This document shows positions 24,147-31,087 of a stretch of 64,000 nucleotides of DNA, piece by piece. The stretch spans positions 496,001 to 560,000 of the forward strand of contig NZ_SOAP01000001.1 of NCBI RefSeq assembly GCF_004364805.1. The letters run 5' to 3'. The DNA is from Pelagimonas phthalicica (GTDB lineage: Bacteria; Pseudomonadota; Alphaproteobacteria; Rhodobacterales; Rhodobacteraceae). The number at the start of each line of letters is the position of its first letter. Within the stretch, counting starts at the first letter, position 1. The translations under genes and the position numbers were made by a program. The notes beneath the pieces were generated by a model. It ran no database searches. It saw nothing but the letters and a program-made list of their open reading frames with translations, and was not told the origin of the DNA.

Positions 24147-25565
24147 TCACGCAGACCGGCGTCCTTTCTTGCGGTTCTTCCAAAACGGCGGGATATCCCC
24201 GGCCATGATGCAGCCATAAGGGTCGATGTAATCGACGATCTCGGCCAGATCATGCGACTTGATCTGATCGACCACACCCTCGGCCCGCTTATAGCTCGAT
24301 GGCAGCTCCGAGGCATCCACCGCCCCGGCATAAAACCGCACATCCAGCCCCTCGGTCTCCGCCTCCAACAGCTGGTCCGGCGTCATCTGCCCCATCCGGC
24401 GCTTATGCTCGGAGCGCGAGAAGTTCCGCCCCGCGCCATGTGGGCTAAAGCCCAGCGCGTGATCGGCATCCTTGCCCTTCACCACCAGAACCGGCTCGGA
24501 CATATTGAGCGGGATCAGGGTCAAGCCATTGGCGTCATTCGCATAATCCCCCCAGGCCGGAGTCGCCCCCTTACCATGCAGGTAAATGTCTCCGCGTTTG
24601 AAGACAAAATTATGCTCGTTCCAATACCGCTCACCGGAGTAGGCTTTGGCCGCCTCCACCGTCGCCTGATGGATGGCATTATGGTTGGCCTTGGTCCATT
24701 TCCGGATCAGCTGTAGCGCCGCCCAATAATCCTGCCCTTCCTGCGTGTCCGCCGGAATCCAGGCATTCTGTTTGGCGGTTTTCGGCGACAGCGTCTTGCG
24801 GAACTTCTCCGCCACCGCCATGCCGTTCTTGTACAGCACCGCCCCCGGCCCGCGCGAGCCGTGATGCGTCACCATCGCCGTGCGCCCTGTCGCGCGTGAC
24901 CGCCCGACAAAGAGGAAATGATTGCCGTCCCCTTGCGTGCCCATATGCTCCTGCGCCATGCGCAAGCTCTTGGGATTGTTCAGAAACGGGTTTTCCCGGA
25001 ACGCGTCAAGCAGGCTCAGAGACACGGTAAACCGCTTGCCCTGAGGCCGCCCGCCCGGACCAAAATGCGTCACCGATTGCGCCGCATCCAGCACGGTTTT
25101 CGGGTCGGCATCGCCGAGGTCCGTGATCATCACCGAACAGCAGATATCAGCGGAATGCATGCCCGGATGAATGGCGTTCCTGGCCGCGGCCACGCCCCCA
25201 ACCGGGATCGTGCCCACCGGCCCCGCTGGGCAGGCATCCGGCATGATCGCCCCGCCCACAAGGGTCGGCGTGCGCATCAGCGCCCGCATGGTTTCGCGCA
25301 CTTTGACAAGGTTGTCTTCCTCATCCGGCCCGCTGACCTCGATATTCTCGTGAAACGCCACCGCGCCCGGCGCGTGCAAATCCAAGGTCTCCGGCTCGGG
25401 CACCAGATCGCCCTCAAGCTCCCGACGGATTTTCACCAAACCAAACCCCTCGGCCCGCAGCCCATTGGCCTTTTCCAACAGCTGCGGAAACTGCTTGCCC
25501 GGCCGATGCCCCCATTCTTTGAGGTGGTCCCCGGTGACCGGGTCAAATTTCGTTTCATGTGTCAT
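24147..25565 (-). CDS. rtcB: RNA-splicing ligase RtcB
   Basis: A 472-residue GTP- and Mn-dependent ligase. It joins 2',3'-cyclic-phosphate or 3'-phosphate RNA ends to 5'-hydroxyl ends. Conserved metal and nucleotide residues are visible: HSADICCSVM, GTQGDGNHFLF, VTHHGSRGPG and SPHGAGRNFSR, which holds the histidine that becomes guanylylated. The ATG at 25565 follows GAGGAGATTGAG. It is the distal gene of the rsr / Y RNA / kptA island, and no rtcA cyclase is present; its place is taken by kptA. Confidence 0.95.
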   Translation of the reverse strand: MTHETKFDPVTGDHLKEWGHRPGKQFPQLLEKANGLRAEGFGLVKIRRELEGDLVPEPETLDLHAPGAVAFHENIEVSGPDEEDNLVKVRETMRALMRTPTLVGGAIMPDACPAGPVGTIPVGGVAAARNAIHPGMHSADICCSVMITDLGDADPKTVLDAAQSVTHFGPGGRPQGKRFTVSLSLLDAFRENPFLNNPKSLRMAQEHMGTQGDGNHFLFVGRSRATGRTAMVTHHGSRGPGAVLYKNGMAVAEKFRKTLSPKTAKQNAWIPADTQEGQDYWAALQLIRKWTKANHNAIHQATVEAAKAYSGERYWNEHNFVFKRGDIYLHGKGATPAWGDYANDANGLTLIPLNMSEPVLVVKGKDADHALGFSPHGAGRNFSRSEHKRRMGQMTPDQLLEAETEGLDVRFYAGAVDASELPSSYKRAEGVVDQIKSHDLAEIVDYIDPYGCIMAGDIPPFWKNRKKGRRSA

Positions 25566-25777: not shown

Positions 25778-26215
25778 TCATTGTTCTTTCCAATAGGTAT
25801 GCCGCGCTATGGGCACGAACACATGCCACTGATAGCTATCTGCGTATTCCGTTCCGACCAAAGCTCCGCATTTGCACAGCTTGTTGGGGCCATTATTACC
25901 GTCGACCCCATCACGCCCCACATGATAAGATACCTCTGAAATCCAGTGCAGAACCGATGTCAGATCACTTGGGTTGATCCAGACAGTATCCTCGGCATCA
26001 ATGGAATTGGGCTGCCAGCTCGCCGGAAACTCTGTGCAAAATTCAGCGTCCACACATAGCTTGCCGCCCTTCGGGACCGGCGCAACTTCGGCGACACGGT
26101 TTTCACCAGGTTCTACGAAATTGCACCGCGAAACACCCTCCGGCGAGAGCGGGATCACATCCAACCGTCTGGTCAATTGTGCGTCACAGTTCTTGCAATA
26201 CAAAGCGCTCGACAT
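25778..26215 (-). CDS. Unknown protein with zinc-ribbon-like cysteine pairs
   Basis: A 145-residue protein starting MSSALYCKNCDAQLTRRLD. An N-terminal CxxC pair and a C-terminal CKC pair (NKLCKCGAL) could together bind one zinc. The middle is acidic and aromatic (DTVWINPSDLTSVLHWISEVSYHVGRDG). The start at 26215 has a weak AAAGA site; a longer frame would begin inside Y RNA E's 3' stem. I do not recognise the family. Its place between Y RNA E and rtcB suggests an RNA-repair or RNA-binding role, but it could be an unrelated insertion. Confidence 0.55.
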   Translation of the reverse strand: MSSALYCKNCDAQLTRRLDVIPLSPEGVSRCNFVEPGENRVAEVAPVPKGGKLCVDAEFCTEFPASWQPNSIDAEDTVWINPSDLTSVLHWISEVSYHVGRDGVDGNNGPNKLCKCGALVGTEYADSYQWHVFVPIARHTYWKEQ

Positions 26216-26247
26216 GGTCTTTTCTTTCGTCTGATACCTTTCAAAGC

Positions 26248-26399
26248 GCGGGGACAAGGGTGCGCAGGATGAATTTTCCGCCACCGGAGTTTTGCGCTCC
26301 GGGCCGGGTTTGAACCGGCAAGGGCCTCGGGTCAGCTAAACCAAATGGCCCATCCCCATGGGGGATGCGTCTACCTGTAATCCTGCGGGCATTCCCCGC
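26248..26399 (-). ncRNA. Y RNA-like module E with tRNA-like domain
   Basis: A terminal stem GCGGGGA / TCCCCGC (26399-26393 with 26254-26248) opens into the motif shared by all five modules, GAATGCC-x-G-x-GG-x-TTACA, with TTG before the 3' stem strand. A second stem, CGCAGGAT / ATCCTGCG, follows. The interior holds a perfect 5-bp T-arm mimic (GCCGG TTCAAAC CCGGC). A 6-bp acceptor-like hairpin (CCGGAG / CTCCGG) capped by seven bases comes next, plus a CATCCCC / GGGGATG hairpin. It lies between kptA and the zinc-ribbon gene. Confidence 0.78.
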
Positions 26400-26406
26400 T
26401 GAAATT

Positions 26407-27000
26407 TCAATTTGGCCAACCAGAAAGATACTCTGGCGGCACATGATCGGTGAGCCAGACACCGTTATCCGCCTGATAAAAGGCGAACCCGTCTGCCTGC
26501 ATCCGCGCAGCATCGACATGCAACACATGCGGCTTGCCGTGTCGCGTGCCAACCTGCCTTGCGGTGGCTTCATCCGCCGACAGATGAACCTGTCTCCGGC
26601 TCATCGGCTTTAACCCCTCTGCGCGTAGGATGCTCAGCTTGTTCAACGCCGTACCATGGTACAACTGGTCAGGCGGTTCCACCGGTTCCAGCCCAAGGCA
26701 GACATCAACCGAATGCCCCTGCGCTGCTCGGATACGTTGCCCATCTTGCGACAGCGAAAACCGCGACTTCTGGTCGTTTCGGACAATCGCCTTGAGCTCC
26801 TCAAGAGATAGGGCCGTCCCATGCGCCTCCGCTTTTTGCAAAAGAGCTGGGACATCGGCCCATCCCTGCGCATCAAGGGTCAACCCAATTGCATCGGGTT
26901 TATGGCGCAGCACGTAGCTGATAAATTTGCTTTTCTGTGTCATCATCTTGGTCACGCTTGGCGGCGGTAGTTTCAATTTTCTAGTGTCAGGACCCGACAT
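26407..27000 (-). CDS. kptA: RNA 2'-phosphotransferase KptA/Tpt1
   Basis: A 197-residue Tpt1-family enzyme that moves an internal RNA 2'-phosphate to NAD, giving ADP-ribose 1''-2''-cyclic phosphate. Family motifs are clear: SKFISYVLRHKPDAIGLTLDAQGW, then IRAAQGHS, LYHGT, and RRQVHLS, including the Arg-His-Arg catalytic set. The start at ATG 27000 follows AAAGGAG with 8-nt spacing. It sits between Y RNA modules D and E. Such 2'-phosphates are made by plant/fungal-type ligation, not by RtcB, so its partner ligase or substrate in this cell is an open question. Confidence 0.92.
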   Translation of the reverse strand: MSGPDTRKLKLPPPSVTKMMTQKSKFISYVLRHKPDAIGLTLDAQGWADVPALLQKAEAHGTALSLEELKAIVRNDQKSRFSLSQDGQRIRAAQGHSVDVCLGLEPVEPPDQLYHGTALNKLSILRAEGLKPMSRRQVHLSADEATARQVGTRHGKPHVLHVDAARMQADGFAFYQADNGVWLTDHVPPEYLSGWPN

Positions 27001-27002
27001 CG

Positions 27003-27040
27003 GACCCGCTCCTTTGTTCCACGGGCATCGCCCGCTATTC
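27003..27040 (-). other. Possible decayed Y RNA core in the kptA leader
   Basis: The 38 bases before the kptA start contain GGCGATGCCCGTGGAACAAA, close to the core GGCGAATGCCGGTGGAACTACA of module C but without a matching 3' stem strand. The segment includes the kptA ribosome site. It may be a remnant of a sixth module or a mimic used for control. Confidence 0.35.
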
Positions 27041-27061
27041 CTTCAACACGTTTAAAATTAG

Positions 27062-27238
27062 GCCTCGGCGACAAAGCGGTCACGCTTGGCGCGACCAAAG
27101 AAACAACTCGGGGGCCTGCCCCGTCTCTGAATGGGCAGAGACGTTTGCCATATGGGCATCCGCGAAAGAGGGGAGTCGAACCCGCTCGGCACACCCGAAG
27201 GTTTGATGCGATGTAGTTCCTTCGGCATTCGCCGAGGC
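27062..27238 (-). ncRNA. Y RNA-like module D, divergent tRNA-like domain
   Basis: A perfect 10-bp terminal stem, GCCTCGGCGA / TCGCCGAGGC (27238-27229 with 27071-27062), leads into ATGCCGAAGGAACTACA, with CTTTG before the 3' strand. A T-loop mimic (GGG TTCGACT CCC) lies at 27173-27185. After it come TGCC / GGCA and a perfect 8-bp CGTCTCTG / CAGAGACG hairpin. No clear D-arm is visible, so the tRNA mimicry is weaker than in B and C. It follows module C after 14 bp. Confidence 0.75.
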
Positions 27239-27252
27239 TTTTGAAAAATGGA

Positions 27253-27395
27253 TCTGGCGACAAATCAGCCGTTGCGACCTAAGGGTGAAACGATCCTGCT
27301 CTACCTGACTGAGCTACGCGCCATCACTTGCCTGATTGGCTGGCGCGGCGGGATTCGAACCCGCGACACGTGTAGTTCCACCGGCATTCGCCAGA
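27253..27395 (-). ncRNA. Y RNA-like module C with permuted tRNA-like domain
   Basis: Terminal stem TCTGGCGA / TCGCCAGA (27395-27388 with 27260-27253). The core is ATGCCGGTGGAACTACA. Inside, in order, are a T-arm (GCGGG TTCGAAT CCCGC), then CGCGCCA followed by GCCA, a 13-nt spacer, TGGCGCG, and a D-arm (TAGCTCAGTCAGGTAGAGCA). CGCGCCA and TGGCGCG are exact complements and make a 7-bp acceptor stem. The tRNA 3' half therefore precedes the 5' half, and GCCA reads as discriminator plus CCA. Cloverleaf order is circularly permuted. Confidence 0.85.
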
Positions 27396-27412
27396 ATGTC
27401 AGTATTTTCGGT

Positions 27413-27638
27413 CCTGACGACAAGGTGTGGGTGAACCAATCCGCGCTCTCCAGCGTTTGGCGAAGTCCTTTCGGAGATGACTCCCTTGGCGCGTTGAAAT
27501 CTCTGATTTCAGGCAGCGTCAAAGGAGCCCGTCTCTTCGCAAACGCTTTTCCACTGAGCTACGTTCCATTTTGGAACGGCGGGAGTCGAACCCGACTCTC
27601 GGGCGTCTTGGGCTGTAGGTCCACCTGCATTCGTCAGG
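27413..27638 (-). ncRNA. Y RNA-like module B with permuted tRNA-like domain
   Basis: Terminal stem CCTGACGA / TCGTCAGG (27638-27631 with 27420-27413). The core is ATGCAGGTGGACCTACA, with AGGTG pairing with CACCT. The interior has a T-arm (CGGG TTCGACT CCCG), then CGTTCCA, three A residues and TGGAACG, a perfect 7-bp acceptor mimic. A D-arm-like TAGCTCAGTGG follows. A long extra arm comes after it: AGCGTTTGCGAAG pairs with CTTCGCCAAACGCT with one bulge, and a TGAAATC / GATTTCA hairpin sits inside. At 226 nt it is the largest module. Confidence 0.83.
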
Positions 27639-27670
27639 CTATCTTCCTTTCTTTTCAATTCCTGTTCAGG

Positions 27671-27737
27671 CCGGGCGGACAAGGGATCTGCGAGACGTTA
27701 CAGTTTGGAGATGTAGTCCCGCAGGCATTCCGCCCGG
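27671..27737 (-). ncRNA. Y RNA-like module A, minimal, no tRNA-like domain
   Basis: A 67-nt hairpin: terminal stem CCGGGCGGA / TCCGCCCGG (27737-27729 with 27679-27671), the shared core ATGCCTGCGGGACTACA, and CTTG before the 3' strand. The upper stem CTGCGGGA pairs with TCTCGCAG (one G-T) and closes a loop of about 20 nt. It has the presumed Ro-binding stem but no T-arm or acceptor mimic. It lies 47 bp after the rsr stop codon. Confidence 0.78.
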
Positions 27738-29341: not shown

Positions 29342-29371
29342 TGTTCCATTCCTTCTCTTTGGTGAGCTTGT

Positions 29372-29393
29372 TTTGCCATGGCCAACCCCCGGC
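29372..29393 (-). promoter_or_regulatory. Weak sigma-54-like promoter candidate for rsr
   Basis: On the minus strand GGGGGTTGGCCATGGCA places a GG and a GC ten bases apart, about 35 bp before the rsr ATG. It matches the -24/-12 spacing but not the full TGGCAC-N5-TTGC consensus. RtcR-type activators need sigma-54, so a site of this class is expected in this intergenic region. Confidence 0.25.
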
Positions 29394-29473
29394 CCAAAGA
29401 AAAACTAAAAATCCAAACAAACACCTGAAACAAAACACAAAAATCAGGATTTGAAAAAATCCACCCCATCACA

Positions 29474-29493: not shown

Positions 29494-29515
29494 ACTTATC
29501 CATTTGGATCACATC

Positions 29516-31087
29516 ATGCGCAATGTCGTCCTCGGCTTCCTTGGCACCACGCTTGATATGGGGCGCAAACGCAAATGGCGGCCCAGCATCAGCCTGGTCA
29601 TGCATGATGATTTCCACGTGGACCGGCTGGAACTGCTCTATGACGAGAATTTCCACCGCCTCGCCCATCAGGTGAAACAAGAGATCGAGGCGCTGTCACC
29701 CGATACCGAGGTTCTGCTGCAAACGCTCAACCTCTCCGACCCTTGGGATTTCCAAGAGGTCTATGGCAAGCTGTTCGATTTCGCCCGCAATTACGGCTTT
29801 GATGAGGATCGCGAGCAATATCACATCCACCTGACCACCGGCACCCATGTGGCGCAGATCTGCTGGTTCCTGCTCGCCGAAAGCCGCCACATCCCGGCGC
29901 GCCTGATCCAGACCGGCCCGCCGCGCAGCGATGATCCCCAGCCCAGCTATGGCATCATCGACCTTGATCTCAGCCGTTACAATCTGCTCCAGCACCGCTT
30001 TGACCAGCTCTCGCGCGAATACGGCGACCAGCTCAAAGGCGGGATCGACACGCGCAACCCCGCCTATAACGCCCTGATCGACCGGATCGAGTTGGTGGCG
30101 GGCAATTCCGACGAACCGATCCTGCTCTTGGGCGAAACCGGCACCGGCAAGACCGAGCTGGCCGAGCGCATCTACAATCTCAAACTCGACCGCCGCCGGG
30201 TCAAAGGGCGCATGGTGCATATCAATTGCGCCACGCTCAACAGCGCTAACGCCATGGCATCCTTGTTTGGCCAGCGCCGCAGCTATACCGGTCAGGCCGG
30301 CTCGGAACGCGGCGGGCTGCTGCGCGAGGCGGATGGCGGCGTGCTTTTCCTGGACGAGATTGACGAGCTTGACCTCAAAGGTCAGGCCATTCTGCTGCAC
30401 GCCATTGAATCCGGGCGGTTCTACCCTTTGGGCTCCGATCACGAGGTCTCCAGCCGGTTTCAGGTCATCGCCGGGGCCAATCGTGACCTGCGCAGCCTCA
30501 GCGCCGATGGCTTGTTCCGCCCCGACCTGCTGGCCCGGCTCAGCATGTGGCGCTTTACCCTGCCGCCCTTGCGCGAGCGCCGCGAAGATATCGAGATCAA
30601 CCTGGCCTACGAGCTGGCCCGCTCCGAAGGCAATCTTGGCAGTCAAACCGGGTTCAACGCCGATGCCCGCGCCGCCTATCTGCGTTTTGCCAGCGATCCG
30701 GCCACGCCCTGGCCGGGCAATTTCCGCGATTTTGGCGCGTCGATCCGGCGGCTCTGTACGCTGGCCCCGCGCGGGCGCATCACCCGCGCCATGGTGGACG
30801 AAGAAATCGCCACGCTGCAACGCCATTGGCATGGCTCCACCAAAGACAGCGATGCCCGCCTCGTCGCCTCGGTTCTGGGCGCGGCGGCGCAGGATCTTGA
30901 CCCGTTCGATCTGGTGCAACTGGCCGAGGTGATCCGCTGCTGTCGCCAATCCGCCAGCCTTTCGGCGGCGGGCCGGGCGCTGTTTGCCGTGTCACGGGCC
31001 AAGCGGACCTCCACCAATGACGCCGATCGCTTGCGCAAATACCTCGCCCGGTTTGACCTCGACTGGGACCGCGTCTCGCCCTTGTGA
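29516..31087 (+). CDS. rtcR: RNA-repair regulator RtcR (CARF + AAA+ + HTH)
   Basis: A 523-residue protein (MRNVVLGFLGTTLDMG...). The N-terminal CARF-like domain covers about residues 1-180. A sigma-54 AAA+ domain (about 185-420) has Walker A GETGTGKTE and Walker B GGVLFLDEIDEL. A C-terminal DNA-binding region follows (about 460-520). RtcR activates the rsr-rtcB operon when damaged RNA is sensed. The sigma-54-contacting loop, normally GAFTGA, reads RSYTGQ here, while E. coli RtcR keeps GAFTGA. ATG 29516 is preferred over an upstream TTG. It is divergent from rsr. Confidence 0.9.
   Translation: MRNVVLGFLGTTLDMGRKRKWRPSISLVMHDDFHVDRLELLYDENFHRLAHQVKQEIEALSPDTEVLLQTLNLSDPWDFQEVYGKLFDFARNYGFDEDREQYHIHLTTGTHVAQICWFLLAESRHIPARLIQTGPPRSDDPQPSYGIIDLDLSRYNLLQHRFDQLSREYGDQLKGGIDTRNPAYNALIDRIELVAGNSDEPILLLGETGTGKTELAERIYNLKLDRRRVKGRMVHINCATLNSANAMASLFGQRRSYTGQAGSERGGLLREADGGVLFLDEIDELDLKGQAILLHAIESGRFYPLGSDHEVSSRFQVIAGANRDLRSLSADGLFRPDLLARLSMWRFTLPPLRERREDIEINLAYELARSEGNLGSQTGFNADARAAYLRFASDPATPWPGNFRDFGASIRRLCTLAPRGRITRAMVDEEIATLQRHWHGSTKDSDARLVASVLGAAAQDLDPFDLVQLAEVIRCCRQSASLSAAGRALFAVSRAKRTSTNDADRLRKYLARFDLDWDRVSPL

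Follow-up and report, generated by a model that had tools for sequence, protein, structure and literature searches.

A set of different predicted Y RNAs between rsr and rtcB in an RNA repair operon of Pelagimonas phthalicica

Introduction

RNA repair operons composed of Ro60, Y RNAs, RtcB, and RtcA are activated through RtcR, which responds to tRNA fragments with cyclic phosphate ends (PMC7790460; PMC8394870). In Deinococcus, a Y RNA tethers Rsr, the bacterial Ro60 orthologue, to PNPase (PMC7790460; PMC8394870). The Y RNA YrlA is circularly permuted relative to tRNA (PMC11472068; PMC8394870), and the Salmonella operon is named rsr-yrlBA-rtcBA, i.e., it comprises two Y RNAs (PMC7790460). The present work deals with a 64,000-nucleotide stretch of the Pelagimonas phthalicica genome (contig NZ_SOAP01000001.1, positions 496,001 to 560,000), called hereafter the window. 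Between its rsr and rtcB genes lie five RNA modules (A to E), which are read here as different putative Y RNAs that would form a set of adaptors for a single Ro60.

The window shares with the Salmonella operon the RtcR activator, a Ro60 orthologue, Y RNAs, and RtcB. It differs by harboring five Y RNAs instead of two and a kptA gene inside the array, and relatives of the window add tRNA genes to the array, a term ("tRNA genes") with no occurrence in the Salmonella operon paper (PMC7790460). The YrlA family (Rfam RF02553; Salmonella YrlA, PDB ID: 6CU1) has in common with the array a stem whose internal loop is conserved, its linkage to rsr and rtc genes, and, for B, C, and E as predicted from their folds, a tRNA-like domain. 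Module C belongs to this family and is an ordinary YrlA. In contrast, module A is devoid of the tRNA-like domain, the D loop of B carries a long insertion, D diverges from the family, and the predicted Y stem of E is joined to the D loop.

Two other systems resemble the tRNA part of the arrays. The Anabaena trn operon and TrcR regulon also involve extra tRNA genes, normally silent, that are induced with rtcB by translational stress; there, however, a plasmid carries the tRNA operon whereas rtcB is chromosomal, control is exerted by the repressor TrcR and not by the activator RtcR, and the parts of the paper covered contain no Ro60 or Y RNA (PMC10272220). Phage tRNAs evading anticodon nucleases are likewise extra tRNAs unlike the housekeeping copy and a possible answer to tRNA cleavage (PMC10264068), whereas the array tRNAs are bacterial and mostly retain the usual anticodon loop, their anticodon stems being unlike those of the housekeeping copies compared. 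For an array of Y RNAs of distinct classes, a tRNA-Leu-like module entered via its D loop, or tRNA genes inside such an array, no precedent was found in the literature searched, the coverage of which did not extend to the main Y RNA papers. Work by Chen in 2014 is said to report at least one tRNA-like Y RNA per species, and several Y RNAs per species may therefore already be known.

Five Modules Share a Stem and an Internal Loop

Both strands of the window were scanned with a descriptor (GA[AG]TGC ... TTGTC) that demands an outer helix of 6 bp or more and scores the inner helix. It returns exactly five matches, all on the minus strand, at the same coordinates as those of the original prediction (Table 1), and no other match in the 64 kb. 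In 20 Markov-resampled copies of the plus strand (1.28 Mb, one strand), four matches are found, none of which combines an outer helix of at least 7 bp with an inner helix of at least 5 bp. The five modules are not due to chance.

The outer helices of A, B, C, D, and E are 9, 8, 8, 10, and 7 bp long. They end with GA/TC and lead to an internal loop whose 5' side carries AATGC and whose 3' side has a stretch that terminates in TTG. An inner helix of 8–9 bp, not mentioned previously, then follows, nested in every module. The single core motif proposed at first is indeed common to A–E, although looser than written, since B carries ATGCAGGTGGACCTACA and E carries ATGCCCGCAGGATTACA. The arrangement, described as tandem, is not strictly so, as E is separated from D by kptA. 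This shared stem with its internal loop is probably a Ro-binding module. Within the stem, the modules differ strongly (67–226 nt) and are therefore not five copies of one RNA.

Just before kptA, positions 27045-26955 contain a candidate remnant of a sixth module with a recognizable 5' core; this module near 27040 was left uncounted, no complementary 3' half being seen. The Rfam YrlA model was rejected as a module counter, as it recognizes C alone and ends it at 27268.

Arm Pairing and Covariation in Relatives

Relatives of the locus were taken from a collection of genome stretches encoding an Rsr relative, of which the best 80 of 131 were retained: 41 Rhodobacterales-type islands (L002-L042) and 39 others (L043-L081). 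Modules were also defined by sequence only, as a 5' core and the first TTGTC downstream, yielding 218 modules in 81 loci; the strict core misses E, and four of the five window modules thus enter this test. The arms of a given module pair at 6.30 of 7 positions, versus 4.15 of 7 for mismatched modules of the same array. Upon shuffling of the 3' arms within arrays (198 modules of multi-module loci), the observed 955 pairs out of 990 compare with a shuffled mean of 671 (sd 21), and 0 of 10,000 shuffles reach the observed value. In the window alone, the true arm pairing is the single best of 120, a result that is circular because the arms had been picked for complementarity by the earlier reader. 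The non-circular tests are the comparison of own and mismatched arms, the arm permutation, and the T-arm and acceptor helices of class E (see below), which were not used in sequence picking.

A relaxed scan over 104 loci yields 399 matches on the expected strands and 13 on the opposite strands. After removal of the 17 of 399 matches with a score below 19, 323 unique modules were clustered into classes using BLAST. Class 2 (A type) is present in 49 loci from Alpha- and Betaproteobacteria. In its alignment of 33 sequences from both groups, 99.0% of the cells are paired and 13 of 19 pairs exhibit both-side changes; none of 500 shuffles reaches its covariation score, and slid versions are at most 52% paired. 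The consensus of class 1 (D type, 41 sequences) exhibits both-side changes in 7 of 16 pairs. The percentages of pairing in alignments A1, A2, and A4 are partly built in, because the picking scans required the outer and inner helices. The aligned sequences represent 33 of 49 modules for class 2, 41 of 52 for class 1, and 28 of 103 for class 0, while alignment A4 gathers 10 of the 12 class-5 modules and both class-15 modules. The complementarity that the original prediction had claimed within each module is thus upheld by the arm permutation, and the stems of homologous islands, whose lack of covariation would by its own terms have refuted it, do covary. Its Y RNA reading gains from the same covariation, from the position of the array after rsr, and from the recognition of C as YrlA by Rfam.

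Few genomes of the family possess rsr (24 of 394 at E<=1e-20). According to the relaxed scan, the 41 Rhodobacterales-type islands harbor 1, 2, 3, 4, 5, 6, or 7 modules in 1, 4, 5, 14, 9, 6, and 2 cases, i.e., at least three in 36 of them and seven at most, and the five modules of the window are therefore typical of the family. The 39 other loci possess zero to five modules (0:1, 1:5, 2:13, 3:10, 4:9, 5:1). The order of the classes is largely kept between genera: class 2 comes first after rsr, followed by class 0 and sometimes class 6 or 7, while later positions are occupied by class 1 (D type), class 4, and, towards the end of the array, a C-type (class 0) or E-type (class 5) module. Exceptions include L020, L027, and L030.

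These counts bear on plain redundancy, according to which the modules would be duplicated Y RNAs with one common job and freely drifting inner parts. A module number ranging from 1 to 7, the presence of class 0 two or three times per array (e.g., L020, L041), and the singleton status of B are in line with it. On the other hand, class-specific domains and most of the order are kept between genera, the A and E types are kept between Alpha- and Betaproteobacteria, and the T-arm and acceptor helices of E covary, which makes redundancy an unlikely explanation.

In ten islands, a conserved long-stem RNA with T-arm- and D-arm-like hairpins, devoid of the Ro-binding core, is observed after an early Y module (L003:6641-6796, L010:6646-6798, L026:6640-6794, L036:6641-6798, and six more). 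The window displays at this place a 33-nt gap, too small for that element. Viral contigs provide 2 pattern matches and no Rsr relative. An Rsr relative, always below 60% identity, is found in 65 plasmid records; in one of them, a Shinella plasmid (L175), rtcR, rsr, and rtcB are followed by a second rtcB-like gene and prfH, as listed in an annotation table that omits RNA genes by design.

Inner Domains of Modules A to D

Module A is a minimal Y RNA (class 2), consisting of its outer helix, a 9-bp inner helix, and a short loop, with no tRNA-like domain. Module C is a classic YrlA (class 0), scoring 75.1 bits with the Rfam YrlA model (gathering cut-off 69). It harbors a T arm, a closed acceptor-like hairpin, and a D arm, and its Y stem replaces the anticodon arm; the closing stem extends to 27253, past the Rfam end. 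The predicted fold of B is YrlA-like, with the same elements in the same order as C, and its D loop carries an inserted 94-nt hairpin (27546-27453). B is a singleton in the clustering, with no class mate found. Module D (class 1) is divergent, with a T-arm-like hairpin plus hairpins of its own; its class includes Rhizobiales members in which a D-arm-like GCTCTCTGGCACGAGC comes next (L047). Based on the predicted folds, tRNA is imitated by B, C, and E. ARAGORN detects 0 tRNA genes in the window, and the Rfam tRNA model has no match at E<=1 between 24000 and 29600.

Such imitation would also be expected of decoys, i.e., tRNA-like modules soaking up anticodon nucleases or other tRNA-damaging enzymes, which Ro60 would merely stabilize. 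The tRNA-like domains are indeed without an anticodon loop, and a competitive-inhibitor role for YrlA is raised by the authors of the Salmonella operon paper (PMC7790460). A decoy role for the array is nevertheless judged quite unlikely, given that A is without a tRNA-like domain and that conservation is highest in the stem, which all modules have in common.

Module E: A Predicted Permuted tRNA-Leu-Like Fold

Module E (class 5) displays GGTAGACGC on its 5' side and TGGCGGAA on its 3' side, which together correspond to a tRNA-Leu D arm split in two (the tRNA-Leu of L118, for comparison, has GTGGCGGAATGGTAGACGC). These halves enclose a short hairpin, a hairpin resembling a long variable arm, then a T arm and an acceptor stem that a small loop closes. 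E is therefore interpreted as a tRNA-Leu-like cloverleaf in permuted order, with its opening in the D loop. In this predicted fold, the Ro-binding (Y) stem appears to enter via the D loop and not at the anticodon position. The tRNA elbow and the acceptor stem thereby appear to be presented in a new orientation by E, in which a short hairpin takes the place of the anticodon arm. The proposed cloverleaf is the minimum-free-energy fold of the class-E module of L032, and E of the window folds alike. Among 12 class-E sequences, both-side changes are observed in 24 of 39 pairs (0 of 500 shuffles). The T-arm and acceptor helices are 100% and 97% paired, with both-side changes in 2/5 and 4/5 pairs.

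Once rotated, 6 of the 12 class-E sequences are read as tRNA by ARAGORN, versus 1 of 12 unrotated and 0 of 1200 shuffles. In alignments to a tRNA panel, the best match is Leu or Ser in 10 cases out of 10, nine of which are sound (L027 was cut at a wrong T-arm motif), with a panel that consists of the tRNAs of the fetched loci alone, includes some false calls, and favors long tRNAs. L043 and L056 were dropped from this comparison, their best match being the L043 module itself.

A covariance model of class E, named R1, matches 15 of 248 family genomes; 13 of these possess rsr, and the other two matches are genuine tRNA-Leu genes, in genomes where a search for the TROVE family found nothing. R1 was also run on 93 sources, i.e., the window and 92 loci, leaving out L001, a dozen further loci, and the tRNA loci. 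This search gave 330 matches at E<=0.5, the best 300 of which were listed, those beyond the best 150 being checked by eye. Among the best 150, all matches in L002-L081 start at most 1700 nt after rsr. Seventeen R1-matched modules outside the training set were inspected for D-arm halves. Seven keep both Leu-type halves (L041, L010, L088, L079, L074, L065, L050), and three have Leu-type halves with 5'-side changes (L102, L007, L028). Ordinary D-arm halves, GGTAGAGC and TAGCTC, are split likewise in L062, L063, and the first L104 module, with variants in L081 and the second L104 module, while L051 and L055 have GGTAGCGC together with GGTGGCGC. This change of D-stem sequence with pairing kept is the strongest indication of a genuine split D arm, bearing in mind that R1 rewards such pairs: its matches lean towards D-stem pairs because it contains them.

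tRNA Genes in and Beside the Arrays of Relatives

In 12 relative loci, the Rfam tRNA model gives 15 matches, 14 of them at 59–75 bits (cut-off 29); the 15th (33 bits, L067) overlaps Y modules. ARAGORN identifies at least one tRNA gene between Y modules in 26 of the 41 Rhodobacterales-type islands (e.g., L003, L005, L011, L020, L036, L041). The tally for these 41 islands amounts to Asn-GTT 16, Lys-TTT 10, Lys-CTT 3, Gln-TTG 3, and Pro 3, plus one ambiguous call (L025 6831; L025 is counted among the 26 via its tRNA-Asn), and CCA is encoded in most of the array tRNA genes. Four ARAGORN calls were not accepted as tRNA genes, namely L043 7082, which overlaps a Y module, L044 6302, which starts with the Y core, L103 2725, which lies within rsr, and L074 139, which is in rsr on the opposite strand.

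A second tRNA-Asn is encoded elsewhere in all nine searched genomes with an array tRNA-Asn. These second copies are nearly constant in sequence and 80–82% identical to the query array copy. In the genome of the window, the housekeeping-type tRNA-Asn is the only one among the matches inspected. Likewise, each of the four genomes with an array tRNA-Lys that were searched has a second tRNA-Lys(TTT) elsewhere. As judged from these sequence comparisons, the array tRNA-Asn and tRNA-Lys copies tested are extras. The anticodon stems of the array tRNA-Asn are mostly CCTGA/TCAGG, versus GTTGA/TCAAT in the housekeeping copies, and those of the array tRNA-Lys are ACCGC/GCGGT or GCCGC/GCGGC, versus ACTGA/TCAGT. 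Among the array tRNAs from L002-L042, 11 of 16 tRNA-Asn and 9 of 10 tRNA-Lys(TTT) keep the usual anticodon loop; the other five tRNA-Asn and one tRNA-Lys have it altered at its first or last position. Known anticodon nucleases attack Lys, Asn, Gln, and Pro tRNAs.

Both the tRNA genes of the relatives and the T-arm and D-arm sequences of the modules would be expected of a degenerate tRNA gene cluster. ARAGORN, however, finds no tRNA in the window, the stems covary and are kept, and the order of the elements is permuted. This extremely unlikely explanation is largely contradicted by the conserved permuted folds.

An apparent C2-A71 mismatch is observed in the acceptor stem of array Lys-TTT copies with GCGCCCG...CGGGCAC ends (e.g., L085:3590-3664). 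Outside Rhodobacterales, mostly in Betaproteobacteria-like genomes, tRNA clusters occur near rsr in L045, L050, L051, L055, and L075, with 17, 5, 10, 8, and 2 genes within the fetched stretch (L045:2225-4325, L050:130-561, L051:1509-2499, L055:1293-2501). These five clusters are located upstream of rsr or beyond rtcR, on the rsr strand, and a further tRNA-Asn is found elsewhere in both tRNA-cluster genomes tested.

Genes and Operon Layout

The minus strand of the window reads rsr, A, B, C, D, kptA, E, a small open reading frame (ORF), and rtcB, with rtcR on the opposite strand (Table 1). By gene content and order, this is the layout of an rtcR divergent from an rsr-[array]-rtcB RNA repair operon. 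Both rtcR and rtcB are located in 75 of the 80 relatives, and one of the two in the remaining five; in 77 of 80, rtcR is divergent and at most 400 nt from rsr. A putative control by damaged tRNA is supported by the presence and position of rtcR.

The rsr product is 69–78% identical to its counterparts in L002-L042 and scores 63 bits with the NCBIfam Rsr model, far under the model cut-off of 900. The rtcB product is under the cut-offs of the NCBIfam RtcB models, and the rtcR product reaches 688.7 bits with the NCBIfam RtcR equivalog (cut-off 650). Relatives of kptA are also found 3' of the array in L020, where the contig end cuts the gene, and in L028, with a partial match inside the L041 array. 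The small ORF, as listed from a GTG start, overlaps E, and a later start would avoid this overlap. It matches no Pfam or NCBIfam family at E<=0.001, and a 34% identical relative precedes rtcB in L022.

A strict sigma-54 consensus is present upstream of rsr in 24 of the 39 other loci (L043-L081). At the corresponding place, Rhodobacterales-type loci display a conserved block around CATGCC-AAAAC-TCCTCAC, found at 29342-29400 in the window and in 41 relatives.

Table 1. Positions of the RNA modules and genes of the locus, numbered along the window.
Feature	Position	Strand	Basis and remarks
Module A	27671..27737	-	descriptor; 67 nt
Module B	27413..27638	-	descriptor; 226 nt
Module C	27253..27395	-	descriptor; 143 nt
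Module D	27062..27238	-	descriptor; 177 nt
Module E	26248..26399	-	descriptor; 152 nt
rsr, bacterial Ro60 orthologue, 518 aa	27785..29341	-	Pfam vWA_Ro60 9.4e-13, TROVE 4.4e-8 (above cut-off)
kptA/Tpt1, RNA 2'-phosphotransferase, between D and E	26407..27000	-	Pfam PTS_2-RNA 1.4e-48; NCBIfam 248 bits, cut-off 239
Small ORF after E	25778..26284	-	ORF list
rtcB, RNA ligase	24147..25565	-	Pfam RtcB 5.7e-38, over cut-off; same array side in relatives
rtcR, sigma-54 activator of RNA repair operons, divergent from rsr	29504..31087	+	Pfam RtcR 3.5e-74

As the modules occupy gaps between same-strand genes, they could be structured parts of the rsr-kptA-rtcB mRNA that steer its processing or stability, and not free RNAs. 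One member, however, is YrlA, a known free RNA, and the discrete tRNA genes lying between modules in relatives would need cutting out. Such a role is considered very unlikely.

Proposed Function and Implications

The reading favored here, with a probability of roughly 70%, is that the island encodes at least five different Y RNAs forming an adaptor set for one Ro60, and that the array tRNAs of the relatives are replacements. Once RtcR senses cut tRNAs, the array would probably be made together with rsr and rtcB. By analogy with the known Y RNA system, each Y RNA would use the common stem to dock on the Rsr ring and would display its own domain. One Ro60 would thus be provided with several adaptors, bringing tRNA-reading partners (PNPase, tRNA enzymes, nucleases) to damaged RNA, and A would act as a plain gate without tether. 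In relatives, the array tRNA genes would replace tRNAs lost to cleavage.

Several results weigh against this adaptor reading. The search with the Rfam Y RNA model, suggested as a check by the original prediction, succeeds for C but leaves B under the cut-off (23.4 bits) and gives no match at E<=1 for A, D, and E. In class E, the D stem is invariant across the 12 sequences, and the hairpin at the anticodon place and the variable arm align badly, with 53–55% of the cells paired. After rotation, E of the window is not read as tRNA by ARAGORN, and only one of the six rotated sequences that are so read is called Leu, that of L043, which is also the one read unrotated. The window array contains no tRNA gene, and the replacement idea therefore rests on the relatives. 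The strict sigma-54 promoter is found upstream of rsr neither in the window nor in any of the 41 Rhodobacterales-type loci. Finally, the transcription and processing of the modules and their binding to Rsr are predictions from sequence. As the YrlA cut-off of Rfam is reached by one of the five RNAs, such arrays are probably under-annotated.

A broader proposal, to which even odds are given, is that the Rhodobacterales RtcR operon would be a three-part answer to tRNA damage, namely repair (RtcB), replacement (the array tRNA-Asn, -Lys, -Gln, and -Pro), and imitation (the conserved Y RNA set, providing a single Ro60 ring with exchangeable adaptors and including, as a new topology, the tRNA-Leu-like fold entered via the D loop), the window being without the tRNA part.

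The array addresses the question of the role of Y RNAs for bacterial Ro60, and of why they are found in an operon induced by broken tRNA. With a conserved set of different Y RNAs present in one operon, the adaptor idea can be put to a direct test. If true, the tRNA-like fold attached by its D loop would be a second way to build a tRNA mimic. The extra tRNA genes inside the operon would, if confirmed as such, connect RNA repair with tRNA replacement and indicate which tRNAs a nuclease attacks. Taken together, the Y RNAs and the extra tRNA genes of related bacteria suggest that a single operon serves to repair damaged tRNAs, to imitate them, and to replace them.

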